Source: a bacterium (lineage in GTDB: Bacteria > Auribacterota > UBA3054). Taken from it: a DNA stretch of 34,731 bases. Below are positions 25,415 through 34,731 of the stretch, one piece after another. The stretch lies in NCBI GenBank assembly GCA_017963805.1, contig JAGCTE010000020.1:1-34731 (forward strand), written 5' to 3'. Position numbers and translations under genes: made by a program. Below the pieces are notes generated by a model. That model searched no databases and was not told the DNA's origin. It worked only from the letters and a program-made list of their open reading frames with translations. The number at the start of each line of letters is the position of its first letter. The stretch's first letter is position 1.

Positions 25415-27565
25415 TCAATTGAATTTCAAGCGCAAATCAACATCTTTCTTCTTTGCGCTCACTTCAATTTCCAACAATCCGTCGGATCCAACCTCTGAGG
25501 CCTTAGCCTCCTCGCCTTCGCATTCAGCCTTCTCAAATTTGTACCCTTCAGGCACGAAGAAGGAATAAGTCTCGCTGGTATTCTCAACGCAGTCAAGCGT
25601 AAGAGTAAGTTCCTTATCTTTCCATTCAATATTCTTAACGCTCACGGCATCCATGCTGACGTGGCGAGTTGAGGCAACGAATTGCGGTTCATCACGCTTC
25701 TCCCTCAAACTTATCACCTGGCAGCTTCCGTATTTCAACGCCTTCATCGGCAGCCCTTCCTTGACTTCTCCCAAGAACTTCTTTTCCCAGAAGTCGTATG
25801 CCAGATACGTCTTCTTGGGATCCAACCCCAGCTTCTCAAACCCCACTACGCTCTCACCAAGCGACCACAGCGCATTCCTAGTCACCACGCACCAGCATCC
25901 CCAATCTTTCGTGAAATGCACCGCCCACAGCGTCGAAAACGGGCTTTCAATGCCCGGTTCCACTCTCGGACCAACTCTGTACATCGCGTCTTCTTCCTTG
26001 TTTTCGTCAATGCCATCGTAAGGGTAATAAGTCGGATGATCAGTATGCATTTGTCCGCTCTCCATCGGATAAGTTTCCAAAGACGGCAAGCCCCTCTGCA
26101 AAATATATATCCTTTCCTGATCAAGATCCTCCGGCTTGTCGCTGAACATATACGTTCCGCCGCCAAGAGACACGGTGGAAACTTTTGATTTTCCCCATTC
26201 CGGATCCGCTTTCATAACCATATGATCAGGATCGTTTACGAAAAGCACTCTATTCAAAGGGAACATCTCCGCGAAATAATACAGTTGCCTATGATGACTG
26301 ATAAAGTCATCCCCACAGTCACTGGCTACCCTGCAGGCATCAATGGAATCCGTAAGTTCCGGCATAACGCCCCAGCAAGCCATGAAATAAAAATCATCTC
26401 CTAAAGTCAATCTCCCGGCCAAGCCAAAATTCCTTATCCGTCTTGTCGCTTCATCAGCATCATACGCTAAAATTAACCCCTCATAAAGCACATGTCTCAG
26501 TCCGTCAACTTTAAGATACTTAAACCCAGCATCCTTGTAAGCTTGAAATACCGGGACAAAAGTGTTTGTAATCGTAAAATCAGACATATCTAAAAGACCT
26601 CGAATCCACTGTGAGGAGCCAAATTTACCGTCTCTAAGACGGAGCCTTTGTTCACCGCGATAATTTATCGATATTCCAGGAGATATCCAAATCCCGGGAA
26701 TCAATCCATAAGACGATATTGTTTTGGCTATGGAGACAGGACCTTCAGGAAACTTCCCGCTTGGTCTCATCCAACAGTCCGCCAGACTAAGCCCCTCTCT
26801 AATATCCGGCTCGCTAGCTTGGTAACCGTTGTCTATTTGTATTGTATCCATCCCGTAAGTATAAAAATTTTCCTTTATAAAAACGCATATGTCATTAATG
26901 TTCTCCATGTTAATTTTTCCGCCATAAGCTTTCCAGGAGCACCACCCGTTGACGCTTTTTAAATTTGGCCTCCTTACCCAAGGCTTAAAATTCCTGTAAG
27001 AAAGCCCAACGCTATAATAATTCGGCCGGAATACAAGATTAAAACAGCCGTTTGTTACCGTAGCCTTGAAACTAGCCGATAGGTTGCCGTTTTCATCCCG
27101 AATCATCCTGTTTCCGAGCCATTCCCAGTCCGCTCCAAACCACTCTAACAAAAAATCTCTCCTGATGTCGTAAACACCGGATATCCCTTTTATAAGCGGA
27201 TCGCCCACTCTTCCCAAGATCGCTTCTCCCCCACTTGCCCTCTTAGAACGCATTACTCCGGCTTCGGCGCTTAAATAGAGATTAACCATTAGTTCATGAG
27301 TTTTTCTATCATCAAAAACGATCGTCCTAACCTGCGTCATAGGATAAGACTGCAATATATCGCTTGAATTATATGTCGAATAAATTCTCTCGCTAGTATC
27401 ACACACAATTTCAAAAAGGATCTTATTGTCGTAATATCCCGTAACTTTGTTTTCTTTCCGCTTTGTAGTAAAAGGTTCGTACGGCGCTTTCGGCTCATTG
27501 ATAAAGCCAGCCCAAACATAAGAAGCAAGAAAGAAGATGCAAATAAATAAAAATGATTTTTTCAT
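25415..27565 (-). CDS. Secreted GH36/clan GH-D-like glycoside hydrolase
   Basis: A 716-residue exported glycosidase, probably an alpha-galactosidase-like enzyme. Residues 1-19 are a signal peptide (SYVWA/G). An N-terminal beta-sandwich leads to a TIM barrel opening at GWCSWKAYGG (207-216). IQIDNGYQ (242-249), GIWISPG (291-297) and KYLKVDGLRH (349-358) follow; D353 is the candidate nucleophile. RVASDCGDDF (412-421), with D416 as candidate acid/base, and FVNDPDHMV (442-450) complete the clan GH-D pattern. The last 130 residues look like a beta-sandwich. The nucleophile motif KVDG differs from the KWDMN of classical GH36, so substrate specificity is open. It is the last gene of the exported-protein operon, its ATG 1 base after the preceding stop. 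GC content rises towards its 3' end. Confidence 0.8.
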   Translation of the reverse strand: MKKSFLFICIFFLASYVWAGFINEPKAPYEPFTTKRKENKVTGYYDNKILFEIVCDTSERIYSTYNSSDILQSYPMTQVRTIVFDDRKTHELMVNLYLSAEAGVMRSKRASGGEAILGRVGDPLIKGISGVYDIRRDFLLEWFGADWEWLGNRMIRDENGNLSASFKATVTNGCFNLVFRPNYYSVGLSYRNFKPWVRRPNLKSVNGWCSWKAYGGKINMENINDICVFIKENFYTYGMDTIQIDNGYQASEPDIREGLSLADCWMRPSGKFPEGPVSIAKTISSYGLIPGIWISPGISINYRGEQRLRLRDGKFGSSQWIRGLLDMSDFTITNTFVPVFQAYKDAGFKYLKVDGLRHVLYEGLILAYDADEATRRIRNFGLAGRLTLGDDFYFMACWGVMPELTDSIDACRVASDCGDDFISHHRQLYYFAEMFPLNRVLFVNDPDHMVMKADPEWGKSKVSTVSLGGGTYMFSDKPEDLDQERIYILQRGLPSLETYPMESGQMHTDHPTYYPYDGIDENKEEDAMYRVGPRVEPGIESPFSTLWAVHFTKDWGCWCVVTRNALWSLGESVVGFEKLGLDPKKTYLAYDFWEKKFLGEVKEGLPMKALKYGSCQVISLREKRDEPQFVASTRHVSMDAVSVKNIEWKDKELTLTLDCVENTSETYSFFVPEGYKFEKAECEGEEAKASEVGSDGLLEIEVSAKKKDVDLRLKFN

Positions 27566-27566
27566 A

Positions 27567-30008
27567 TTAATCCCTTAGTTCCACTTTTCCTTCACCAGGT
27601 TTTAGTATTAAACCATCGCGCGCTGGCAAGATGGTTATATTCAGGTCTTTATCTGCTATATCCTTGCCGTCACAAACGGATATCCTAATTTGATATTCGC
27701 CTGTCTCGGAAGGAACTCCTCTCAATTCTCCTTCCGGGTTCAAGCGCAATCCAGCAGGAAGATCATCTTCGTTAAACGCTATCCAAGAATACTTTTTCTT
27801 TTTACCTCCTACAGCCTTCAAACGGTAAAAGTATTCTTTTCCAACAGTAGCGTCTTCCAATTCATCATCTACTATCGTCAATGGGTAATCCAAAGGATCA
27901 TCTGGATCATATCCTCTTTTAATTTCCTTGTAATCGTCATACCCGTCATCATCTCTGTCGCCGGGGATAATTATAAAAAAAATCCCCATATTGCTATTTC
28001 TTTTGTTGTGGCTGGAATCTTCCGCAACAACTTGCCAATAGTAATAACCGCAGTAAAAGTCAAAATTTTCAGTCGAGATTGCAATATTCGTTCCATTCAG
28101 TTCCTGTGAATAAACCAATTCCAAATTATCTTGATAAAGATTAAATGTGTAGTTTATTGTTTCGTTTTCTTGGTCTTCCGAGGCGGTCCAGACAAAATTA
28201 ACGTCTTCATATTCTTGGGTGTTCTCCGTAATTACGGAACAATCTAAAAGCAAATCGGAGCCATTGGCAGGTTCAAGCAAGATTGGTTTGGAGGGAGCAT
28301 GATTGATCGTTTCGCCATCTTCGGCGTCCCAGAACAGTGTGAGTTGTTCACTGTATGGCCCTTTAATATCAACGACTTGAACATCTTGTATGCGAACAGC
28401 ATTGTTCATCTTTGAATGATCAAGCAGCAAAACAAAATTCAACCTTTTATAATTGTCGACCCTATAGGTTAAAAACGTCGTGTTGGCATTATCCAAAGGA
28501 CACTCTTCCCAAAAAACACTGAATCCATCCATTTCAAGCAAGGGTTCCCAGTCTAAACTGCTTATGTAAACCGCACCCGTAACAATTCCGGATGAAAAAA
28601 CATTTAAATAAAAATTAGTAATTTTAGTATTATCTGTCAGATTAAAATGAATATCCTCCGGCTCAAAAAGTATTTTTCTAAAACCGTTGGTAAAAATAGG
28701 ATTTGTTTTATTGATCATTTCATTAAGATTATTCACACCATCCATATCACTATCAGCATAAGGATCGGAAAGATCTGTAATATTAATGCCTGCTTTCTGT
28801 GCAATATCTAGCCAATAACTCATCCAGTATGCGTTAATAGAAGTAGCACCTTGAGCGTTGCAAGGATCCAAAGGATGAGGGTCAATATCATCGGTTAGTC
28901 CGTCATCATCAGTATCATCAGAACAGGGATTTGTCACATAATGAGATTCCACTCCATTCGTGATATAGGGATAAAGTCCCAGCACTTCATCACCATCTGT
29001 TATGCCATCGCCATCGGTATCATACCATGTAGGCATTGTGTTAATAGTTATTATCTCGTCACCGCCAGGAAACTGTAAGACAATATTATGATCAGAAACC
29101 TCTATATTATCGGCTAATCCGTCGCAATCGGTATCGCTGTCGGTAGGATCTGTCCCGTAAAGGAAAATTTCTTCGGCGTTGGAGAGAGTATCTCCATCTT
29201 CGTCACCGCTAAAATTAGCATTAACATGTATAAAATTATTGCTGTCAGGCATAACAAAAAGCTCGCCGGACTTAAGCGTAACCTCTGTCGCGTATTGCGA
29301 CCAATCAATAACATTTGTAGAAACAGAAGAAATGTTATTGCCACCATTAATATAATCGCAATAGTCGTGATAGTGAGGATTATTAGGCGAAATGACTTTT
29401 ACAACAACGTCGGTTGAAAGATTATTTATAAAACTGCCAGTTGGGCAATTGCCATTAAAACTCGTCAATGTTGTTTCCGGTTCAACTGATTGTAAACTCA
29501 GATTTGCAAAATTAAAATGAACCTCTTCAAAATACATTGTACTAGGATATAATGGACCAATTTGTGCAATAAGCAGTTTTCTCGATTGGGAAGATCTGCT
29601 AACTTTCGTTCCAAAGATAGGCAATTCCAAGCAAAGATTATAATATTTAGCATAAAAATCGACATTTATGGTTTTGCTATCTTCCCAATAAACGTTCGAA
29701 TAATCATATTCCCTAAATCCCTTGTTTAATAGCGAAACGATCCACTCGTCATTTTGCGCTTCCATACAAGTATAAAAACATGTAAACTTCGTAAAAAAAG
29801 AACTTGGAATTTTAACTTTAGATTTGCCGAAGAAAAAATTGATAGGTACGTATGTATACCGAACCTCAGAATCAAAATAGTCGACAGAATTAAGATTTGT
29901 AAAATGCTGTTTTAACTCTATCCCAGCCACCTTGTTTTCTGCTGATATAGTCAATACAAAGAAAAAGGAAATTAATAATATAATCAAGTAAGTCTTAATT
30001 TTTCTCAT
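27567..30008 (-). CDS. Secreted TSP3-repeat protein with FN3-like and He_PIG-type Ig domains
   Basis: An 813-residue exported protein. The frame opens at 30152, but the first 48 codons lie within the upstream gene; the ATG at 30008 begins a good signal peptide (MRKIKTYLIILLISFFFVLTISA). An unknown beta-rich region is followed at about 269-437 by four TSP3-like calcium-binding loops: DEDGDTLSNAEE, DTDGDGITDGDE, DTDDDGLTDDID and DSDMDGVNNLNE. A fibronectin-III-like domain (about 570-680, ending YYWQVVAEDSSHN) comes next, then another loop, DRDDDGYDDYKE, and a He_PIG putative Ig domain (about 718-793). There is no catalytic motif; it probably acts as a calcium-stiffened adhesin or scaffold. It is a diverged paralogue of the upstream TSP3 protein and overlaps it by 14 bases. 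Confidence 0.82.
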   Translation of the reverse strand: MRKIKTYLIILLISFFFVLTISAENKVAGIELKQHFTNLNSVDYFDSEVRYTYVPINFFFGKSKVKIPSSFFTKFTCFYTCMEAQNDEWIVSLLNKGFREYDYSNVYWEDSKTINVDFYAKYYNLCLELPIFGTKVSRSSQSRKLLIAQIGPLYPSTMYFEEVHFNFANLSLQSVEPETTLTSFNGNCPTGSFINNLSTDVVVKVISPNNPHYHDYCDYINGGNNISSVSTNVIDWSQYATEVTLKSGELFVMPDSNNFIHVNANFSGDEDGDTLSNAEEIFLYGTDPTDSDTDCDGLADNIEVSDHNIVLQFPGGDEIITINTMPTWYDTDGDGITDGDEVLGLYPYITNGVESHYVTNPCSDDTDDDGLTDDIDPHPLDPCNAQGATSINAYWMSYWLDIAQKAGINITDLSDPYADSDMDGVNNLNEMINKTNPIFTNGFRKILFEPEDIHFNLTDNTKITNFYLNVFSSGIVTGAVYISSLDWEPLLEMDGFSVFWEECPLDNANTTFLTYRVDNYKRLNFVLLLDHSKMNNAVRIQDVQVVDIKGPYSEQLTLFWDAEDGETINHAPSKPILLEPANGSDLLLDCSVITENTQEYEDVNFVWTASEDQENETINYTFNLYQDNLELVYSQELNGTNIAISTENFDFYCGYYYWQVVAEDSSHNKRNSNMGIFFIIIPGDRDDDGYDDYKEIKRGYDPDDPLDYPLTIVDDELEDATVGKEYFYRLKAVGGKKKKYSWIAFNEDDLPAGLRLNPEGELRGVPSETGEYQIRISVCDGKDIADKDLNITILPARDGLILKPGEGKVELRD

Positions 30009-31875
30009 GTATTTTAATTTCCTCATCATTTTTTTTGAATCGTTTTTTCCCATACTTAGCCTGCAATCTAATGTTACGCAAGGTATCAGGCTTGAAAACG
30101 AAGGTTGAATCAAGTGTAAGTCTGCGTGTTCTGAAAACAGGAATATAATCACTTATAACAGTAATATTATTAAAATATGATAAACAAGAACCATAAGCCC
30201 AAGTAGTAAATTCATATTTATCTAGTTTGATCGTAGCAAGATCCCATGCGTAACAAACCATTGACCCAACAATTTCATTAAACGAAAAATGATATTTAAA
30301 ACTACTGCATTTGTTATCAGGAAAAACATCGTAACAAGGCATATAACATATTTCAGGATGTCCTCTCCAAAAAGACTCCATGTCTCTTTCCCACTTGCAA
30401 GGAACACTTTTGTCTTCTATAAAATACTGATCGGGTTTCGGATATAACAACTTGGGGATTTTTGGTTCTTCTGGTTTGAAAAATTTACTATAGCAAGTCT
30501 TAAATGAAATGTTTTTAGAACAAATTTCTTTATAGTTTTTTTCGTTTTCATATAAAAATGGAATCTTGCAGCTTATATTTACATTTATATCACTAAATGG
30601 TCCATCTTTGCTGAACACAAATTTAAATTTATGTACTGCCATAGGCTGAACATGCGCAAATAGGGAATCTTTTTTTCTATCAAGCAAGTTCATGCTATAT
30701 AAATTTTTACCTTTGAAAACTTTGCTTCTCAACGGCTCACTATCCAAATATTTAATATGTAGCGAAGACATAATTTCACTGTCCCATAAGTCTATTGATG
30801 TCTGTAAATAACTCATTATGTTCGTATTGATAAGAACATTGAAATACCCTTCGTATCTTTCACCACTAATATTTCTAAGTCTTGGATTTTTAGGAAATAT
30901 GATTATTGTTTCCTTATCAGCAACAGTTGGATTAAGATCAATCCTTTTTTCTTCCTTGTTTGTGAAGCCATCTCCGTCAGGATCAGCGTCGGCAATCAAC
31001 AATTTTTCATATAGGTCTTTTGCCCCGCGACTCCAGTATTCTGCCCATTCTACAGGCATTAATTTGGAATCAGTAGATTCGCAGGAATATGTTGGATATT
31101 TATCCGCTCCGTCTAGAATACTATCACCGTCAGTATCAGGATTAGTTGGATCTGTAACAAAACCGTTTTTGCCAAATATCTCGTCATTGTCATCTATCCC
31201 GTCCATATCAGTGTCTTTCATCCCCATTTTAGTGATCACAAACAAATTAGAAGAGCAGTTTTTATATTTGATCACAATATTTCTCCCCTTAACCTCATCC
31301 CAACTCGGAATGCCATCCCCGTCCAAATCACCATCCATATACTTTAAGCCATAGTATTTTTTAGCATCATCACAATATTCATGGATTTGAAGATAACTGG
31401 CGAGACGAACTCCGTTTTTGCCATCGCGAGTCTCAATATATTTGTCGCCAGGATGCAACACACAGCAAAGTTTATATTTTTCTCTAATAACGTTAATATC
31501 CTTTATATTATCTCTTGCGGCGCCTTCATAATCAAGAAAGGTAATCACAACAACGTTGGAAGATGAATTAATAAAATCATTTGTAACTATACCCTTATGA
31601 AAAACCCATTTTTTCCAAGGATTCTTTTTTGTTTCCTCTTCCCATTGCTCTTTAGACATCGTGTCTTCTGGCAAAACAAATCTAAGCAATCGCGAGTCAT
31701 GCTCCCTCTTTTTTTCTTTTTTCAATTTATCTTCTGCATCCTTTTTCCTTTGCAGCTCTTCTTTCTCTTCCTTGGAGATATTGGTGTACTCCCCGGATTT
31801 AAGATCTAAAACCATTTCTGAAAAAGCTTGAAAAGTAAAAGCTAAACAAAAAAACATGACAAAAAGATTATTCAT
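29995..31875 (-). CDS. Secreted TSP3-repeat protein, paralogue of the next gene
   Basis: A 626-residue exported protein with a signal peptide at 1-19 (ending QAFSE). A charged coiled-coil-like stretch at 33-60 is rich in Lys and Glu. TSP3-type calcium loops lie at about 181-315: DLDGDGIPSWDE, DTDMDGIDDNDE, DTDGDSILDGAD and DPDGDGFTNKEE. The order of segments around and after them (an NIVIKY strand, an EWAEYWSRGAKD helix, then a long beta region with EPLRSKVF) parallels the downstream protein (NIVLQF, YWMSYWLDIAQK, EPLLEMDG). The two therefore look like an old tandem duplication. It lacks that protein's FN3 and He_PIG tail and ends in a basic KKRFKKNDEEIKIHEKN. No enzyme motif is seen. The ATG overlaps the lipase stop as ATGA. 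Confidence 0.82.
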   Translation of the reverse strand: MNNLFVMFFCLAFTFQAFSEMVLDLKSGEYTNISKEEKEELQRKKDAEDKLKKEKKREHDSRLLRFVLPEDTMSKEQWEEETKKNPWKKWVFHKGIVTNDFINSSSNVVVITFLDYEGAARDNIKDINVIREKYKLCCVLHPGDKYIETRDGKNGVRLASYLQIHEYCDDAKKYYGLKYMDGDLDGDGIPSWDEVKGRNIVIKYKNCSSNLFVITKMGMKDTDMDGIDDNDEIFGKNGFVTDPTNPDTDGDSILDGADKYPTYSCESTDSKLMPVEWAEYWSRGAKDLYEKLLIADADPDGDGFTNKEEKRIDLNPTVADKETIIIFPKNPRLRNISGERYEGYFNVLINTNIMSYLQTSIDLWDSEIMSSLHIKYLDSEPLRSKVFKGKNLYSMNLLDRKKDSLFAHVQPMAVHKFKFVFSKDGPFSDINVNISCKIPFLYENEKNYKEICSKNISFKTCYSKFFKPEEPKIPKLLYPKPDQYFIEDKSVPCKWERDMESFWRGHPEICYMPCYDVFPDNKCSSFKYHFSFNEIVGSMVCYAWDLATIKLDKYEFTTWAYGSCLSYFNNITVISDYIPVFRTRRLTLDSTFVFKPDTLRNIRLQAKYGKKRFKKNDEEIKIHEKN

Positions 31876-33992
31876 TCTTGTTCCTCCGTTTCTATTTCTG
31901 ACAAGCGATCTCTTAAAGCTTCATATAAAATAAGATTATCGCGCCCAGAAAATTTTTGAATGTTGCTATGTATTTCGTATGTTGATTTTGTTCCTATTCC
32001 TCGGAAATTAGGATTATTTGTTAAGCAAGCCGAATAAATCCCGACAGCACTGTCAGAGATATTTCTTTTATTAAGTTCACTGCTATGTGAAATTATGGAA
32101 GGCCACAAAGCTTCTAATCCAAGTCCCTCTTCTCCTATACCTTCAATTGTATCCATGAGGACATCATACCAAACATCAAAATGCAAACGCCATCTTGAAG
32201 ATGTGTTAAATAGTAATTTATAGTTTTTGTATTTCCCTATTGAATCAATTGAAGTCATAGCAACCTCATTAATAGTTATATATTTTCTTGTCCCAAGAAT
32301 AACTGTTGTTTTTGATGTCGGAAACTTAAACTTCGAATTCCCTCTTAGCCAATTTGCTCTAGTTCCTCTCGCGATTAAGTCAAAATTATCACCGCTTGTG
32401 CGTTTTATTACATAAGAAAACCATTTCTTCACTTTGAATTGATCTGCTAATGACGATCCAAGTAACGGTGGCGCAGCAAATAAAATATTATCAACATTAT
32501 TTTTAAATTTATTGTTGTGTTCCTGACAGTAATAATATGTCATTAGACAACCTGCAGAATGCGCAACAATAGTTGCTTTTAAATCATTGCTTTGCCTTTT
32601 GCTTGTGATATACGCTCCTAATGTCCCATTCCTAACACCATTTCCTACATATTTGCGTTTAATGCTTTCTGTTGACTTCCATGGGAAATCATGTGCAGAA
32701 TATGGACGAATATCATAATACAGTGTGTTGTTATTCCTAAGACTTCCAAACGATGTTCCGTCACCATCATAACGTGGCGATGCGTCTATGCCATGAACAA
32801 GTATTAATGGTTTTAATCTACTTAACCTTAAAACAATAGAATTATCAGAAAAGGGGTTAATTACAAGTTTAATAAATATAAACTTATCGTTTTCTAGCCC
32901 ATTAAAAGGATATCTCCTGTGATGATCGTTATTATAATCTTCAGATTGTGATGACAAATTATAAAAGGCACTTTCGAATTGATCATTGTAAAAATTTATT
33001 GAATATGTATTTTTTGTAGATGTCTGAAAGCTCATCGCTTCGTTGATGCTATTGAAAGAAATAAAAATAGGCTTTGAAACATCTGTAACATTTACTATAT
33101 CGTTGTTCTCTTTCCAATTAGTTGTTTCACAAATATGCTTACAGTTAAAAACAGCAACTTTATAATTCAAATTTTCTGAATTATTATAATTTAAAAATGA
33201 TAATCTAACATAAGCTGTTTGATAAGGTGTCAAATTTTCAAATTCAAGCATAGGTTTAAAACCAGAATTTGATGGTCTGTTTGTGACCGCATTTAAAACC
33301 TCAAAATTATCGTCTCCAAATTGCCCTAACTGAACTACAACTTGCGTATTCCTTGAACCTGATGGGAAGGCCATGTAAATCTGGCCAGATGATTCTGATG
33401 GCATGAAACGGAAATAATCTATTTCCTCTACTCCATTGGTATTTACGGCATTCCCATCTATCTCACCAAAGAGTGTATACTGGGCTGTACCATTCTCTGG
33501 TAGGCCAGGTGTTATTTGAGGTATCTTACTGTCATCATCATTGTTTGACGGGCATGGATCCCATTGAAAGATCCATATAGTCCTTCTATTCCTCGGAGGC
33601 TCTGAAACCTCTGTATTTTGGTAAGGATCAAAATATCCGTAATTTCCATTATCATTTTTTATAGCTACTTCAGTTGTCTGAAATTCAACTCTGAGATCTG
33701 GAGCGCTTAAAAATTCTTGCTTAACTGTAAATATATATTCAACATAAAGTTCATCTGGGTCACCTGAAGTAATTTGCTCCCATTCAAGCCAATTGCAATC
33801 AGGTTCATAAAGCGTTACATCCACATTATAACTAGGAGGATAATGTTTTTTTAAATCCATCATATAATAAGAAACATTTTTATCCAATCTAACAATTTTA
33901 TACCTAACTTGCTCAGGTTCAGGTTGTGTTATGCCGAAAACACAATAATTCAAAAGCAAAAAAACGGAAGTAATTATATTTGACAGTTTCAT
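31872..33992 (-). CDS. Secreted modular alpha/beta-hydrolase (lipase/esterase-like) with PPC-like domain
   Basis: A 706-residue exported protein with a signal peptide at 1-20. An N-terminal beta-rich domain (about 28-145) is followed by a PPC-like (bacterial pre-peptidase C-terminal type) domain near 165-283 with FGEIDGNAVNTNGVEEIDYFRF. The catalytic part starts at LILVHGI (396-402, oxyanion-hole HG). The nucleophile elbow is AHSAG (477-481, Ser479). FAAPPLLGSSLA follows, and H604 (RLHFDVWYD) is a candidate catalytic His. It resembles lipases and PGAP1-like esterases; the substrate is unknown. Composition is strongly A/T-rich compared with the core genes. It starts 4 bases after the fibre gene and overlaps the next start by 4 bases. 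Confidence 0.82.
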   Translation of the reverse strand: MKLSNIITSVFLLLNYCVFGITQPEPEQVRYKIVRLDKNVSYYMMDLKKHYPPSYNVDVTLYEPDCNWLEWEQITSGDPDELYVEYIFTVKQEFLSAPDLRVEFQTTEVAIKNDNGNYGYFDPYQNTEVSEPPRNRRTIWIFQWDPCPSNNDDDSKIPQITPGLPENGTAQYTLFGEIDGNAVNTNGVEEIDYFRFMPSESSGQIYMAFPSGSRNTQVVVQLGQFGDDNFEVLNAVTNRPSNSGFKPMLEFENLTPYQTAYVRLSFLNYNNSENLNYKVAVFNCKHICETTNWKENNDIVNVTDVSKPIFISFNSINEAMSFQTSTKNTYSINFYNDQFESAFYNLSSQSEDYNNDHHRRYPFNGLENDKFIFIKLVINPFSDNSIVLRLSRLKPLILVHGIDASPRYDGDGTSFGSLRNNNTLYYDIRPYSAHDFPWKSTESIKRKYVGNGVRNGTLGAYITSKRQSNDLKATIVAHSAGCLMTYYYCQEHNNKFKNNVDNILFAAPPLLGSSLADQFKVKKWFSYVIKRTSGDNFDLIARGTRANWLRGNSKFKFPTSKTTVILGTRKYITINEVAMTSIDSIGKYKNYKLLFNTSSRWRLHFDVWYDVLMDTIEGIGEEGLGLEALWPSIISHSSELNKRNISDSAVGIYSACLTNNPNFRGIGTKSTYEIHSNIQKFSGRDNLILYEALRDRLSEIETEEQE

Positions 33993-33996
33993 TATG

Positions 33997-34731
33997 CTAT
34001 TTTCTTACAATCACATAGTTGAAGGAAATGCTTTCTAAAACATCGCTGTCAGTCGGACGCTTAACGCTGAATGAACTGTCGCTTGCATCGATCTCGACCC
34101 AGTAGGCGGTTTTTGTTTCCTGACGCGGAGTTAAAAGTATTATCGCGTTGCTTGTTAAGCCTGAACATGAGATATTCGACGATGTATAAGCATTTACCGG
34201 GATCTCAACTACTCCGCATTGAGTCGTGTTTTGAAGCTGCAAAAACGATTGGGCCTGGATATTGCCTCCTTCGGCTGCCAAAAGCGTTAGGTCGCCGTTA
34301 GGCGCGCTTATTTTTCCGCTGGGATTAACTATAACTATATCGCTTGGATTGGTACTGCTTCCTACAGTCCAATCCCCGCTTCCGTTAATTTGCAGATTGC
34401 TAACTATCAATTGCCCGGTAACAGAGCCTCCGGCAGTTGTTATGAGTCTCCTTTTTAGTTCCTGACAGAACATATCCCATGTTATTTTGGAGCTCAGAAG
34501 ATTTGGATATTCTGCAAGCAATGAAATAAACACGTTACTAAGGCTTGAACTTGTAACAACTTCAGAGCCGCCTACGGTTATGTTTCCACGTTCCACCGTT
34601 AGCCCGCTTTCGTTGAATGTGAAACTTTCATCATCTGTGAATTTGAATATAGACCAAATATCTTGCGAAGTATAAGTCAAAGACCAGTAATCGCTCAAAT
34701 ATTCATAAAAACACTGCTGAGGTGTCAAGCC
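33997..34731 (-). CDS. Fibre-like surface protein, 5' end outside window
   Basis: The frame is open to the window edge, so the visible 244 residues are a C-terminal fragment; the TTG at 34728 could be a start, but continuation upstream is more likely. Short beta-strand repeats such as GGSVTGQLIVSNLQINGSGDW and DLTLLAAEGGNIQAQSFLQL resemble phage tail-fibre or trimeric adhesin shafts. The C-terminal module (GVVEIPVNAYTSSNI, NAIILLTPRQ, AYWVEIDASDSSFSV, ESISFNYVIVRK) matches the knob-like end common in bacterial and phage fibre or beta-helix proteins. No tail or phage genes accompany it, so a cell-surface or exported fibre is favoured. It is the first visible gene of the exported-protein operon, 4 bases before the lipase ATG. 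The function is not proven. Confidence 0.65.
   Translation of the reverse strand, partial: GLTPQQCFYEYLSDYWSLTYTSQDIWSIFKFTDDESFTFNESGLTVERGNITVGGSEVVTSSSLSNVFISLLAEYPNLLSSKITWDMFCQELKRRLITTAGGSVTGQLIVSNLQINGSGDWTVGSSTNPSDIVIVNPSGKISAPNGDLTLLAAEGGNIQAQSFLQLQNTTQCGVVEIPVNAYTSSNISCSGLTSNAIILLTPRQETKTAYWVEIDASDSSFSVKRPTDSDVLESISFNYVIVRK

Follow-up and report, generated by a model that had tools for sequence, protein, structure and literature searches.

A modular, multicopy cassette of predicted exported proteins, including a putative phage-fibre-like adhesin and a putative lipase, in bacteria of the ruminant gut

Comparison with described systems

Cellulosomes and other multi-enzyme surface complexes combine exported scaffold-like proteins and hydrolases with calcium-binding-type repeats, and polysaccharide utilisation loci are operons of exported glycan-active proteins with interchangeable glycosidases. 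Other described relatives of single parts are phage tail fibres and tailspikes with K1-lyase-type C-terminal domains, the GH36 alpha-galactosidases, and the Myxococcus adhesion proteins CglD and MtsD, which contain TSP3-like repeats. The five-gene cassette described here resembles each of these in some respect. It lies in the window, i.e. the whole 34,731-bp stretch analysed, which is the entire contig C65 (JAGCTE010000020.1) of genome G000 (2.05 Mb in 74 contigs, 93% complete).

Several differences from these systems were observed. The dockerin and cohesin of cellulosomes were absent from the cassette in Pfam scans; the candidate scaffold components are TSP3 proteins and a phage-like fibre, and the constant enzyme is a lipase, not a cellulase. 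The fibre resembles phage fibres in its tip fold and, in the copies from cassettes C50 and C10, in its repeats (PHROG), but it is a bacterial protein with a signal-like N-terminus, encoded, by the gene maps, outside any phage genome or prophage. The glycosidase shares the barrel region and both catalytic-position aspartates with GH36 alpha-galactosidases, but it has a signal-like N-terminus and, in most cassette copies, 'DNG' in place of 'DDG/DDA'. NCBIfam matches of the TSP3 proteins to CglD and MtsD were weak and covered the repeats only (27 and 11 bits against cut-offs of 400 and 800). Unlike polysaccharide utilisation loci, the cassette showed no transporter or SusC/D-like gene in its gene maps, in which part of the neighbours was scanned. 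Features that define cellulosomes, phage fibres sensu stricto and T9SS cargo were missing from the cassette. No description of this type of combination, of such repeated cassettes or of an exchangeable last slot was found in the open-access literature; the parts themselves are of known kinds.

Gene content of the window and properties of the encoded proteins

ORF analysis of the window confirmed five genes on the same strand (Table 1), the junctions between them being +4, -4, -14 and +1 bases. The 14-base overlap applies when TSP3b is read from an ATG (813 aa); an earlier GTG would give 861 aa. The GC content was 0.38 in the cassette versus 0.55 in the remainder of the window, and promoter- or terminator-like sites in the cassette region showed no excess over shuffled sequences. 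Since the five-gene arrangement recurs at paralogous and orthologous loci (see below), it is not a chance one.

Table 1. Genes of the cassette in the window
Gene	Position	Strand	Length	Features
Fibre, 3' part	33997..34731	(-)	244 codons	C-terminal beta domain kept in all cassettes
Lipase/esterase	31872..33992	(-)	706 aa	Signal-like N-terminus; predicted export
TSP3a	29995..31875	(-)	626 aa	TSP3-like Asp-rich repeats; predicted export; variable C-terminal half
TSP3b	27567..30008	(-)		TSP3-like repeats and Ig-like C-terminal region; predicted export; member of the core trio
GH36-like glycosidase (clan GH-D)	25415..27565	(-)	716 aa	Optional cassette part

The 5' end of the fibre gene lies outside the window, as noted earlier, and its start was located on contig C34 (L012:4897-6111), which overlaps the right end of the window by 141 identical bases. 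When joined, the two parts form a single reading frame of 602 codons with a signal-like N-terminus. The two contigs are likely contiguous, with the overlap being the usual assembler leftover at a graph junction. This join is supported by the orthologous locus on contig C111 of genome G007 (L056), where a complete fibre gene is preceded by the same murA-like and yggS-like neighbours. Beyond the fibre on C34, the yggS-like and murA-like genes are on the opposite strand; therefore, the fibre appears to be the first gene of the operon.

The AF2 model of the 244-aa fibre fragment had a mean pLDDT of 63, rising to about 85 across residues 170-244. Foldseek searching, with the entire model as the query and much of that model of low confidence, led to phage tailspike C-terminal domains; E-values were weak in the PDB (0.1 or more) and better among viral models (from 2e-4 up), several of which were named K1 lyase C-terminal domain. 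In the C50 and C10 fibres, TSKI/TDKI-type repeats matched PHROG tail fibres, and the window fragment gave no match to PHROG. The repeats vary in length among cassettes. No sign of positive selection on the fibre was seen, with dN/dS being 0.08-0.28 throughout. By analogy to the phage fibres that its tip and repeats resemble, the protein is probably trimeric. The C10 fibre gene (L061:3279-5549, G000) contains one in-frame stop within the repeat array and is otherwise open; it may be decaying, may vary between strains or may have been misassembled. A phage origin was rejected for the cassette: no phage genes were nearby in the gene maps, tblastn of the fibre tip and the lipase against 50,697 phage records gave no match, and a scan of viral contigs with the lipase was empty.

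The lipase consists of the signal-like N-terminus, a beta-sandwich N-terminal region and a C-terminal alpha/beta hydrolase domain. The AHSAG motif, previously read as a serine-hydrolase elbow, is present, and the putative triad Ser479-Asp647-His675 was invariant in 18 cassette lipases, so that the window protein has the nucleophile elbow, Asp and His of an alpha/beta hydrolase. In the model (mean pLDDT 76), the C-terminal part matched bacterial lipases by fold, with BlEst2 (TMt 0.66) among the Foldseek hits. The product is likely a lipase/esterase, as predicted from these conserved active-site residues.

In TSP3b, repeat stretches are at residues about 270-380 and 684-702. The Asp, Gly and Glu positions of the TSP3 repeats are strongly conserved in homologues of both TSP3a and TSP3b, a pattern suggesting that these proteins would bind calcium. 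With Pfam TSP3_bac (PF18884; gathering score 25), the two window proteins scored 16.5 and 15.4 bits, and a paralogue in L010 scored 33.9 bits, above the gathering score.

The clan GH-D motifs noted earlier in the glycosidase held up: Asp354 and Asp416 were invariant in 13 homologues and aligned with the two catalytic-position aspartates of Thermotoga maritima alpha-galactosidase 1zy9 (E 8.7e-24), and the window protein has the barrel and the nucleophile and acid/base Asp positions of that clan. From established knowledge of GH36, we take Asp354 to be the putative nucleophile and Asp416 the putative acid/base. No GH family of Pfam or NCBIfam matched above cut-off; the enzyme is therefore designated GH36-like. 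The cassette glycosidases formed one clade (support 100/100) apart from the two other GH36-like genes of the genus, making a single recruitment followed by duplication the simplest history. Those other genes form a tandem pair outside any cassette (L059, L060 and L157), with a signal-like N-terminus on the second and none on the first. Between the glycosidase genes of C65 and C47, the 3' ends (window 25415-26000 and L009 6400-7057) were up to 84% alike per 40 codons and the middle parts about 55%, as if gene conversion had occurred between paralogues.

A crude hydropathy test, not SignalP, indicated a hydrophobic signal-like segment at all visible N-termini of the cassette proteins, in agreement with the signal peptides of the original prediction. 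The host is diderm, its genome having Omp85 and five secretin matches; thus Sec export alone would reach only the periplasm. Por_Secre_tail, the one T9SS tail family examined, had no member in the genome, and the cassette proteins showed no domain recognisable as serving in docking or sorting. Judged from these sequence features, the cassette proteins are likely exported and include a phage-fibre-like adhesin, and export past the outer membrane is possible.

Recurrence, exchange and co-divergence of cassette parts

Among 384 genomes searched, all eight of the genus and two others of the order had the lipase, and the remaining 374 gave no match at E<=1e-12; the matches in G004 were fragments only. 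Cassette copies ranged from one to eight per genome. A profile search of G000 gave eight lipase loci, and a search of the same genome with the operon DNA gave partial copies on C47, C49 and C50. The fibre tips in G000 numbered seven complete ones plus the half on C34, each complete tip being directly upstream of a lipase.

Checking the gene order in other genomes revealed six cassettes with the complete five-gene order, spread over four genomes of a single genus (G000 C65+C34, G000 C50, G006 C117, G005 C9, G007 C71 and G007 C111). Two further cassettes were permuted: G007 C158 (lipase > TSP3a > fibre > TSP3b > GH) and G000 C47, cut by the contig end (TSP3b > lipase > TSP3a > GH). With the same order recurring in this way, the homologues are not scattered singly. 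The idea of a five-gene set stood in that the order recurs; it had to be narrowed in that the core comprises only three genes (fibre > lipase > TSP3b), TSP3a and the glycosidase can be missing, permuted orders occur and G000 alone has eight lipase loci. The core trio alone occurs at the C70 locus, with a GC content of 0.55 as in the rest of the genome. It was found between the same neighbours in G000, G001, G002, G003, G005 and G006, and the corresponding locus of G007 is truncated by a contig end, with the loss of the fibre and some of the lipase. In another family of the same order (G012 and G013), a fibre with a related tip is followed by a lipase, an extra gene and TSP3b. TSP3a and the glycosidase were kept on G003 C148, together with a 98-aa TSP3b remnant, and on G004 C218. 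Remnant loci L053 and L058 have TSP3a and the glycosidase without fibre or lipase; there, the glycosidase may work without these two, or the loci may be decaying.

The last slot can hold different enzymes. In the C10 cassette (L061), it is occupied by a GH31 enzyme (Pfam GH31 barrel, E 4e-48) with 7wj9, deposited as an alpha-xylosidase, as the nearest solved structure, and in some other cassettes the final gene is TSP3a-like with no enzyme match. As read from these sequences, the predicted glycosidase can be left out of a cassette or exchanged, being GH36-like in some copies and GH31 in another. Candidates for new payloads were rejected: the fourth genes of L143, L144 and L150 (798, 793 and 732 aa) resemble the TSP3a-type scaffold without an enzyme match, and a 453-aa product encoded at the C70 locus is apparently cytoplasmic, from a neighbouring gene. 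Therefore, only two payload families are claimed.

Some neighbouring genes were also recorded. In relatives of the window locus (L053:6863-10501, L056:14605-16220 and L067:559-4200), the glycosidase is followed by a conserved exported protein about 1212 aa long, which is absent from the window; the L053 copy is a putative metallopeptidase. The C60 cassette of G000 (L143:3855-9704) is shortly downstream of an Omp85/BamA-type gene, and two large exported proteins with BACON domains are encoded upstream of the C60b cassette (L144:441-6597).

Identity matrices of the lipase, TSP3a, TSP3b and glycosidase gave Mantel r values of 0.96-0.98 in a small sample of seven cassettes that are related to one another. 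With these four proteins, r was 0.83-0.93 for the last 150 residues of the fibre and 0.51-0.58 for the remainder, the low values arising because the N-terminal part of the C50 and G006 fibres differs and resembles that of the C10 fibre. As a lead, the fibre C-terminus may contact the partners of its own cassette, with the remainder exchangeable for binding or anchoring. A natural fusion of the lipase with the TSP3b tail, present as a single 857-aa protein (L143:9707-12280), points to physical cooperation of the two proteins.

Between G000 C50 and G006 C117, dS was 0.17-0.63 in the cassette, without correction for its AT-rich codon usage; the genes upstream of it and those farther downstream gave 1.1-1.6. 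The lower cassette values suggest recent exchange between species. A GH127-type gene convergent to the C50 cassette (L010:16015-18054) had a dS of 0.48 and may have moved together with it.

Proposed role and alternative explanations

That the genes are made together and act as one set, as originally proposed, is supported by the recurring order, the co-divergence of the partners and the lipase-TSP3 tail fusion. Our main reading, to which we assign a probability of roughly 0.55, is that the window contains one copy of a modular, multicopy, exported adhesin-enzyme cassette, a set that diverges together and has swappable parts. The fibre would serve in binding and anchoring, its conserved C-terminal domain matching the partners of the same cassette and the remainder being swappable. 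TSP3a and TSP3b would form a calcium-stabilised scaffold holding the enzymes, and outside the cell the lipase and glycosidase would share one target, a surface bearing lipids or glycans. That the set assembles, lies at the surface and attacks such a substrate is what we infer from these features. Different cassettes may be aimed at different substrates, such as forage galactolipids or host glycoconjugates.

The algal target suggested earlier is unlikely. Assemblies of the named genus members come from the digestive tracts of sheep, goat, yak and water buffalo, a source that makes algae less likely as a target than plant galactolipids or host glycans. Galactolipids of forage plants are one example of a substrate that would occupy both a lipase and an alpha-galactosidase-like enzyme; that this pair would suit forage digalactosyl-diacylglycerol is a guess. 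Host glycoconjugates or microbial competitors may be the targets instead. In the rumen, Butyrivibrio-type bacteria are described as degrading galactolipids, as is a ciliate that has galactosidase activity; in grazing animals the predominant lipolytic species are expected to be others than the known degrader of triglycerides (PMC9626764).

Three other explanations were weighed against the main reading. An unlikely one, still the most probable of the three, is that the proteins remain beneath the outer membrane or within it, where their substrates would be envelope lipids and glycans of the cell itself or glycolipid fragments that it imports. A diderm genome with Omp85, no T9SS tail family and only Sec-type signal-like N-termini agrees with this location, but a phage-fibre-like protein with length-variable repeats and rods of calcium repeats fit an external role better; moreover, one to eight copies per genome speak against a housekeeping envelope task, and the five secretins could offer an outward route. 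We give less credit to a loose operon of independent secreted digestive proteins that are co-transcribed and unassembled. The lipase-TSP3b fusion, the tight co-divergence of the partners and the tracking of these partners by the fibre C-terminus argue against it, even though it would fit loci L053 and L058, where the glycosidase and TSP3a persist in the absence of fibre and lipase, and C70-type loci, where the core trio occurs with no glycosidase.

The last and least probable of the three is an antagonism cassette, with the fibre docking on rival microbes, the lipase harming their membranes and the glycosidases opening surface glycans. It would be consistent with the tailspike-like tip, the conserved lipase triad and AT-rich multicopy loci, one of which has synonymous divergence much below that of its flanks between two species, as expected if exchanged. 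However, the five-gene cassette has no immunity-like gene, a defence library gave only a repeat-driven match, and the GH36-like and GH31 payloads are digestive-type enzymes.

Beyond the modular adhesin-enzyme reading, we tentatively raise a bolder possibility, held with considerable doubt: that these loci represent an undescribed class of bacterial surface machine, in which an exported lipase-TSP3 scaffold is targeted by an interchangeable phage-type fibre encoded on the chromosome, glycosidases are swapped in the last slot, and up to eight differently aimed copies are kept in a small genome. If the proposed role is correct, phage-type fibre modules would serve as bacterial targeting parts, and the natural swaps across cassettes make the role of each part testable. 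An uncultured ruminant-gut lineage would thereby gain a modular means to bind and dismantle lipid- or glycan-bearing surfaces, and should the target be forage galactolipid, the finding would bear on lipid breakdown in the rumen.
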